From Fimbriimonadaceae bacterium (GTDB lineage: Bacteria > Armatimonadota > Fimbriimonadia > Fimbriimonadales > Fimbriimonadaceae), in the NCBI GenBank assembly GCA_020850835.1, contig JADZDX010000033.1, positions 1 through 64,000 on the forward strand: a stretch of DNA of 64,000 nt, written 5' to 3'. Made by a program: the position numbers and the translations under genes. Below the pieces are notes generated by a model. It worked only from the letters and a program-made list of their open reading frames with translations. It searched no databases and had not been told where the DNA came from. Below, piece after piece: positions 16,183-17,845 of the stretch. Within the stretch, counting starts at the first letter, position 1. Every line of letters begins with the position of its first letter.

Positions 16183-16186
16183 TTCT

Positions 16187-16290
16187 TTGGAGTGCGGTAT
16201 CTCCCGATACCGCTTTGGTTTTGCCGATCTCCTGATCGGCAAGCTTAGCTACGGATTATGACGCGTCCTTGGAGTGCGTTATCTCCAGAT
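16187..16290. repeat. REP-type palindrome pair, left side of RAYT element
   Basis: Two perfect hairpins occur: 16194-16213 (8-bp arms, GCGGTATC/GATACCGC, loop TCCC) and 16223-16240 (7-bp arms, GCCGATC/GATCGGC, loop TCCT), separated by 9 nt. The order and sequence are the exact inverse of the right-side copies. A degenerate second copy, GGAGTGCGTTATCTCC, follows at about 16271-16286. The block ends against the glyQ start codon. Confidence 0.85.
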
Positions 16291-16294
16291 CGAA

Positions 16295-16849
16295 CTACAG
16301 CCAGCTATTGGGTTCAACAGCGTATTCATCCACTTCAGCAATCGAATCATCCTTGAAAGACCTCACCGTCTCAACATAGCTTTTGGGCGCAAAGCGTTCG
16401 AACCAGAAAGCAGAACAAAACGGATACATCGCGGCATCGGAAACTACTCCATGCCGCACTGGATTGTAATGGACGTAGTGAAGCCGGACCATGAATGATT
16501 TTTCAAAGGTCAGTTGCTTATCGAAATAGTTGTGCCAAACCGTTCGCCCTGGAGTTTGGTCGGCGTTGTTCGCATGCCTCGCCGTGAACTTGTGCACAGC
16601 CTGAATTGTCCTCGAGATCGAACGATCTCCTTTCGAATTGGATACGACAACATGGTAGTGATTGGGGAACACAGCCCACGCCAATGCCTCAAATCCATCG
16701 CGCTCAAGAGTGTCGAGCAAGCTTGCTTGAAGGACCTCCAGTTTCTCCTTCCCCCGGAAGATGTGCTGGTGCTTGTAGGTCGCTGCAGTAACCATGACCA
16801 CCCCATCTTGGATGAGGCGATGAGTCGGTGCGTGCGGCCAAGGACGCAT
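16295..16849 (-). CDS. REP-associated tyrosine transposase (RAYT, Y1/HUH family)
   Basis: 184 aa. The HUH metal site is HYH in AVFPNHYHVVVS, and the nucleophilic Tyr lies in YVHYNPVRHGVV, both diagnostic of the IS200-related RAYT group. RAYTs bind and nick REP hairpins in single-stranded DNA and are usually single-copy, domesticated relatives of transposases. Matching inverted palindromes lie on both sides. ATG 16849 has TATGAT ending 6 nt upstream, partly within the first right-hand repeat; a TTG at 16873 inside that repeat is less likely. Confidence 0.93.
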   Translation of the reverse strand: MRPWPHAPTHRLIQDGVVMVTAATYKHQHIFRGKEKLEVLQASLLDTLERDGFEALAWAVFPNHYHVVVSNSKGDRSISRTIQAVHKFTARHANNADQTPGRTVWHNYFDKQLTFEKSFMVRLHYVHYNPVRHGVVSDAAMYPFCSAFWFERFAPKSYVETVRSFKDDSIAEVDEYAVEPNSWL

Positions 16850-16857
16850 CTCCAAAT

Positions 16858-17002
16858 CATAACACGTGTCCAACGCCGATCAGGAGATCGGCTGATCTAA
16901 AGCGGTATCGGGAGATACCGCACTCCAAAGCATAACACGCATCCAACGCCGATCGGGAGATCGGCTGATCTAAAGCGGTATCGGGAGATACCGCACTCCA
17001 AA
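16858..17002. repeat. Tandem 73-bp REP-type repeats, right side of RAYT element
   Basis: Two adjacent units, 16858-16930 and 16931-17002, are nearly identical (differences around 16867-16868 and in one loop base). Each holds hairpin A (GCCGATC/GATCGGC, loop AGGA or GGGA; 16875-16892 and 16948-16965), the spacer TGATCTAAA, hairpin B (GCGGTATC/GATACCGC, loop GGGA; 16902-16921 and 16975-16994) and the tail ACTCCAAA. The second unit stops one base before the fpg stop codon. Orientation is inverse to the left block. Confidence 0.93.
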
Positions 17003-17845
17003 TTACTTCTGCAAATCCGGAACCCAGGCCGTTGTCCGACCGCCCACTTGCTCCCGAATAATGTCGTGCCCATCAAACTGCGGAACGCCCTTCTTGCCGC
17101 CCCAGCGAACATGAAACAGCCAGTCCGCCGGGAACTGCGCCTTGTCTGCGCCCTTCTCGACCGCTAAATCAATCACGTCCTCGATCGCCTTCTTCAGGGC
17201 CCCGGCTTCCTTCTCCTTCAAAGAAGTCCCCAGCCGGTGAGGCGAGAGCCGCGCCATGAGCATCACCTCATCGGCGATCCAATTACCGACTCCGGCAAAC
17301 AGCGCCTGATCAAGCAGAATCGCCTTCAGCGGCGCCTTGCGCTTCTTCAGTAACGCATGTAACTCAGAAGAAGAAGGCAACCCCTGCCAGGAATCAAAGC
17401 CCAATGCCCCGACTCGCTTGTCCGTCTCCGGCGAATCGCTCAGCCACAAGCGCGAAAGCCGGCGGCCGTCGGTCATCGCGATGCGTCTTCCCTCCTCGGT
17501 GGTCACCATCAGCTTCAAGAAGCGCGGCCGGCCCTCTTCGTCGTCGAGGGGCATGTTGCCCATCTCGCGAATGCGGATTGTCGGCTCGCCCATCTCCCGA
17601 ATCCAGCCCGCCATCCCAAGGTGTCCGAAGAGCCAAGGCTTCTTATCGAGTTCGATCCACCAATACTTCCCTTTGCGCCCGACCCCGGTCACCTTCGCGC
17701 CCTTCAGGTGCTCCTCCATCGCCGTGTTCGGGAACCGCCCCAACACGATCTCATCGGGCGCGACCTCGACCTCTTGGATCGTGTGCCCCTTCAGCGCCCG
17801 CTCCATCACACGGCGGACGGTCTCGACTTCGGGCAATTCGGGCAT
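17003..17845 (-). CDS. mutM: Formamidopyrimidine-DNA glycosylase, zinc-less
   Basis: 280 aa base-excision repair glycosylase/AP lyase for 8-oxoguanine. It begins MPELPEVETV with catalytic Pro2 and Glu3, has the Lys in GRKGKYWW, and NWIADEVM of the helix-two-turn-helix. The C-terminal finger region, WGGKKGVPQFDGHD followed by GGRTTAWVPDLQK, lacks all four zinc-binding cysteines but keeps the GRTT Arg, as in known zinc-less finger glycosylases. CATAAT ends 6 nt before ATG. RAYT and glyQ lie downstream on the same strand. Confidence 0.94.
   Translation of the reverse strand: MPELPEVETVRRVMERALKGHTIQEVEVAPDEIVLGRFPNTAMEEHLKGAKVTGVGRKGKYWWIELDKKPWLFGHLGMAGWIREMGEPTIRIREMGNMPLDDEEGRPRFLKLMVTTEEGRRIAMTDGRRLSRLWLSDSPETDKRVGALGFDSWQGLPSSSELHALLKKRKAPLKAILLDQALFAGVGNWIADEVMLMARLSPHRLGTSLKEKEAGALKKAIEDVIDLAVEKGADKAQFPADWLFHVRWGGKKGVPQFDGHDIIREQVGGRTTAWVPDLQK

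Follow-up and report, generated by a model that had tools for sequence, protein, structure and literature searches.

A REPtron is a RAYT (REP-associated tyrosine transposase) gene with REP repeats on either side (Nunvar 2010, PMC2817692; Bertels and Rainey 2011, PMC3116915; Di Nocera 2013, PMC3733652). Elements of this kind with GTAG-tagged repeats are described as REPtrons, those with other terminal repeats as TIRtrons (Di Nocera 2013, PMC3733652). Here we describe a locus at which such a transposase gene and its repeats stand immediately upstream of glyQ, the gene for the alpha subunit of glycyl-tRNA synthetase. The window, that is, the whole stretch of 64,000 nucleotides that was analysed, comes from a draft Fimbriimonadaceae MAG (hereafter G000) of 2.15 Mb in 119 contigs, which is 88% complete.

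On the minus strand, the locus reads fpg, two tandem 73-nt repeat units, the RAYT gene, the left repeat and glyQ (Table 1). The gap between fpg and glyQ is wholly taken up by the element, whose right end lies at the fpg stop codon and whose left end lies at glyQ. There, the left repeat terminates in ACTCCAAAG, 2 nt from the glyQ ATG (16182-16180). The RAYT gene is flanked by inverted repeat arms of 55-56 nt with 91-93% identity, one of which is the left repeat. Each repeat is built of two hairpins followed by a tag that reads GGAGTGCG inward and CGCACTCC outward. The HUH motif NHYHVV can be read in the RAYT sequence and marks the protein as a Y1 (HUH) transposase; the NCBIfam cut-off for NF047646, the REP-associated tyrosine transposases, is 80 bits.

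Table 1. Features of the fpg-glyQ locus in G000, in window coordinates
Feature	Position	Strand	Remarks
fpg (mutM), formamidopyrimidine-DNA glycosylase	17003..17845	-	PF01149 and PF06831; stop codon touches right repeat
Right terminal repeats, tandem pair of 73-nt units in inverted orientation to left repeat	16875..17002	+	Inverted arms I1, I2 and direct repeat D1
TATGAT, likely leaderless promoter of RAYT	16856..16861	-	TANNNT scan; 6 nt before RAYT ATG (16849); kept in G001
RAYT (REP-associated tyrosine transposase), 184 aa	16295..16849	-	NF047646, 92.5 bits; PF01797; intact in G000 and G001
Degenerate outer half-repeat	16266..16290	-	Direct repeat D2 at 88%; poor conservation in G001
CATAAT, best conserved candidate -10 for glyQ	16255..16260	-	Score 5.1; identical in G001
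TAAGCT, second candidate TANNNT	16242..16247	-	65 nt before glyQ ATG, just upstream of hairpins
Hairpin 1 of left repeat, GCCGATC-AGGA-GATCGGC, 7 bp stem, loop AGGA	16223..16240	-	-10.9 kcal/mol; identical in G001
Hairpin 2 of left repeat, GCGGTATC-GGGA-GATACCGC, 8 bp stem	16194..16213	-	-12.8 kcal/mol
glyQ, glycyl-tRNA synthetase alpha subunit, 309 aa	15253..16182	-	TIGR00388, NF006827

GlyQ is encoded in a single copy (one match in the G000 genome, 88% complete), glyS is present, and a search of the same 88% complete genome for a dimeric-type glycyl-tRNA synthetase found none; glyQ must therefore be expressed. Within this genome, GlyQS appears to be the sole glycyl-tRNA synthetase, and a second enzyme that would render glyQ dispensable was rejected, as the dimeric type was not found.

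Between G000 and its sister species G001 (window 16295-16849 and L039 23-577), the RAYT genes at this site share 78.6% nucleotide identity and diverge by 0.61 at 4-fold sites, far more than the 0.22-0.32 seen for fpg, glyQ and the M32 peptidase gene. The divergence between the two genomes falls once the inner edge of the left repeat is reached. From these sequences, the pattern suggests that RAYT was swapped for a related copy, or that it evolved very fast, with the glyQ-proximal repeat staying put.

Further copies of the repeat family lie elsewhere, as the repeat pattern has eight matches in G000 (five of them outside the glyQ locus), four in G001 and three in the congener G004. Repeats of the family adjoin genes that we take to be hppD (4-hydroxyphenylpyruvate dioxygenase), purB and der, names that were read from the sequence and not from a family search. 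Where a repeat end faces a gene start, a -10-like hexamer stands between the repeat and that start at hppD (TATAAT), purB (TACCTT), a C35 gene (TATAAT), L056 (TAACAT) and L060 (TAGAGT); glyQ is the only start-facing case without one among those examined. Other repeat ends abut stop codons, namely at fpg, at a der-like gene in L190 and on both sides in L184. The hppD repeat is found in G000, G001 and G004 (L183, L191 and L197) and thus predates their split; no RAYT was found in G004, though it carries this repeat. GGAG-tagged inverted hairpin repeats also surround seven more distant RAYTs of the family (L055, L056, L058 and L060-L063), where the shared tag, GGAG(T)GCG, precedes a hairpin with a genome-specific stem sequence; the RAYTs of L057 and L059 have inverted hairpin repeats as well. 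A limited literature check found no description of a GGAG(T)GCG-tagged repeat family in Armatimonadota, and the left-repeat core was absent from viral contigs. At the other end of the element, the right repeat begins directly at the fpg stop codon (window 17002-17005). According to work cited in PMC12306157, a REP that lies no more than 15 nt from a stop codon lowers translation of the upstream gene in E. coli, and by analogy an effect of this kind could concern fpg.

In order to see what the element means for glyQ, the promoters of its relatives are informative. Across the order, the ancestral type is (G)GTANNNT, positioned 8-22 nt upstream of the start. A TANNNT hexamer occupies this position in 48 of 57 Fimbriimonadales glyQ genes (G000 and G001 excluded), against 6 of 58 genes in a control window, and TANNNT is over-represented 12-19 nt upstream of gene starts in the G000 genome. 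The glyQ gene of G002 has TACCCT at -17. In G004, fpg adjoins glyQ with no element in the 126-bp gap, and TATCCT stands at -19; with a matrix built on the relatives' glyQ promoters, this site scores 12.6, the median of the relatives' sites being 10.4. The same empty gap (L040 6025-6147) holds short repeats of its own, GAGGGACA / TGTCCAGCC-like and unrelated to the element. Only G000 and G001 carry the element at glyQ. Their GlyQ proteins are 98% identical and they share the RAYT gene, the left repeat and the junction of element and glyQ, as read from two draft MAGs, of which the G001 contig begins inside the element with its right-hand side unseen.

The earlier note on this DNA had held that neither a TANNNT hexamer nor a Shine-Dalgarno sequence separates the hairpins from the glyQ ATG, and this is borne out. 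The last 60 nt before the ATG contain no TANNNT, the hexamer is also missing in G001, TAAGCT and CATAAT lie just upstream of the hairpins, and the spacer from hairpin 2 to the ATG, ACTCCAAAGAA, holds no Shine-Dalgarno. The comparison with relatives lacking the element, which the same note had suggested, gives this absence its meaning: because both carriers are without the hexamer and most relatives, G004 among them, have it, it shows that the near-leaderless TANNNT promoter was lost with the element's insertion, in what may, from two genomes, have been one event or two. Presence in G000 and G001 and absence from G004 fit an insertion. A REPtron-like element settled between fpg and glyQ in the ancestor that the G000 species shares with G001.

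Where, then, does glyQ transcription start now? There is good support from the sequence comparison that it must originate upstream of the hairpins, within the element or beyond it, because the near-leaderless promoter of the relatives is missing in both element-bearing species. The best-scoring site between the RAYT stop codon and the glyQ ATG in G000 is gcgtCATAATcc, 78 nt before the ATG. The candidate hexamer CATAAT sits in a non-hairpin spacer with zero differences between G000 and G001, and the same word is found upstream of glyQ starts in L115, L120, L145 and L146. Its score is weak to modest, close to the tenth percentile of the native promoters; it is reached by 0.27% (about 1 in 370) of window positions, and about 0.3 sites of this score are expected by chance in 113 nt. 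A promoter inside the left repeat is a live option, one whose transcript would carry some 65-70 nt of leader and would not be leaderless. Most likely, glyQ would start from this CATAAT, with readthrough from RAYT and fpg as a second source, and translation would begin without a Shine-Dalgarno at the ATG just downstream of hairpin 2. We lean with moderate confidence towards this account as a whole, that is, element insertion, promoter loss and transcription through the hairpins mostly from the left-repeat promoter.

The earlier note had instead offered readthrough from fpg or RAYT as the driver of glyQ. The upstream origin that this implies is retained here, while readthrough itself takes second place to the left-repeat promoter. 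In its exclusive form, glyQ would be the last gene of an fpg-RAYT-glyQ or RAYT-glyQ transcript that starts from the RAYT TATGAT or from the fpg promoter, which we consider possible but rather unlikely. The three genes lie on the same strand, and no intrinsic terminator (hairpin plus U run) was found on the minus strand within the element, including the stretch from RAYT to glyQ; the plus strand has one, at 16194-16213. An attenuator at glyQ was likewise rejected, the minus strand being without a U run. RAYT has its own TATGAT in both species, so that readthrough into glyQ is possible, and a TACAAT within the RAYT gene of G000 scores 7.0, stronger than CATAAT. However, this internal TACAAT is not retained in G001. 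RAYT genes are usually weakly expressed, whereas glyQ is essential, and RAYT diverges fast at 4-fold sites while the left repeat does not.

Alternatively, a weak promoter could reside in hairpin 2 itself and provide a short leader. The sequences GGTATCGG in G000 and GGTATCCG in G001 are like the native GGTATCCT, their GGTATC core is common to the G004 promoter and many relatives, and the G001 version scores 6.1. What renders this reading improbable is that the hexamer lacks its last T in both species, that the G000 version scores -0.6, a level reached by about 3.5% of window positions, and that the right-hand repeats hold the same GGTATC core, which is thus not specific to glyQ.

The hairpins themselves are as the earlier note had described them, two stable structures that end at the glyQ start. 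Both are perfect and sit in the last 60 nt before the ATG; the loop of hairpin 2 is GGGA in G000 and CGTA in G001, with the same stem in both. The 115-nt glyQ leader folds better than shuffled sequences, as RNA (z -3.6, 1/200) and as DNA (z -4.4, 0/200). This could point to a functional RNA leader that sets glyQ output by processing or stabilising the transcript, possibly under the influence of RAYT: the hairpins would be part of the glyQ mRNA, their stems are unchanged in G001 while two loop bases differ, and the predicted fold leaves part of the AUG region unpaired. Yet hairpins of this family show equal conservation at hppD, where the repeat lies upstream of the TATAAT promoter and outside the hppD transcript in G000, G001 and G004, hairpin 2 being identical in all three; hairpin conservation therefore need not mean leader function. 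Moreover, the conservation of the glyQ leader is ordinary. It differs at 4 of 84 positions between G000 and G001, and among 23 further upstream regions compared between the two species, 8 differ at no more than 4 of 84 (the median of all 24 being 6.5). Exceptional conservation had been considered, since the leader looked constrained when set beside the pooled 4-fold sites (0.27) of fpg, glyQ and the M32 peptidase gene, and was dropped after comparison with these 23 regions. We regard a functional RNA leader as quite improbable, and the processed leader of the earlier note finds no support.

RAYT-family enzymes act on and cut single-stranded DNA, not RNA, so that the further proposal of the earlier note, an altered glyQ output through RAYT cleavage of the hairpins in the mRNA leader, has no basis. 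Control of glyQ by RAYT is likewise unsupported. The leader gave no Rfam match (E <= 1), and a T-box or other known riboregulator upstream of glyQ was accordingly rejected, as was a Shine-Dalgarno in the hairpin loops (GGAG), which lie too far from the ATG and of which that of hairpin 2 reads CGTA in G001. Presumably, the hairpins are present as transposase recognition repeats and not through any need of glyQ. It would take a very improbable turn for the RAYT element to have donated both promoter and hairpin leader to glyQ, with RAYT binding of the hairpin DNA coupling transposase activity to glyQ expression; if true, such coupling would explain the retention of the element. Translation of a longer GlyQ from an in-frame upstream TTG (16242) through the hairpins has next to no likelihood, as the frame, open in G000, is interrupted by a TAG codon within the loop of hairpin 2 in G001, where the ORF begins at the ATG; this contradicts an N-terminal extension, which was rejected.

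The locus offers a clean comparative case of a transposase-repeat element that displaced the promoter of a housekeeping gene, with two sister species that carry the element, a congener that does not and a promoter that is order-wide. It also reveals that Fimbriimonadaceae have a RAYT repeat family consistently tagged GGAGTGCG. The substitute promoter, if mapped, would tell how a gene that is essential can survive a loss of this kind.

Altogether, the locus can be set beside three described systems. The ancestral glyQ promoter is like the near-leaderless TANNNT promoters presented in Zheng 2011 (PMC3160421) and Cortes 2013 (PMC3898074), and it is this type that is absent in G000 and G001. The element resembles REPtrons in its Y1 transposase, which scores above the NCBIfam cut-off for REP-associated tyrosine transposases, in its inverted hairpin repeats on both sides and in a small number of dispersed copies without a transposase. 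It differs from them in the tag at the hairpin foot, here GGAG(TGCG) in place of GTAG, and apparently in copy number, with 3-8 per genome (by pattern) as opposed to hundreds. With TIRtrons and their TIRYTs (PMC3733652) it shares a RAYT-like gene, longer terminal inverted repeats capable of self-complementarity and small dispersed families; compared by motif, part of that set has GGGGWSAS, unlike the tag found here. The element thus belongs to the REPtron/TIRtron kind, as an apparently low-copy member with the tag GGAGTGCG.
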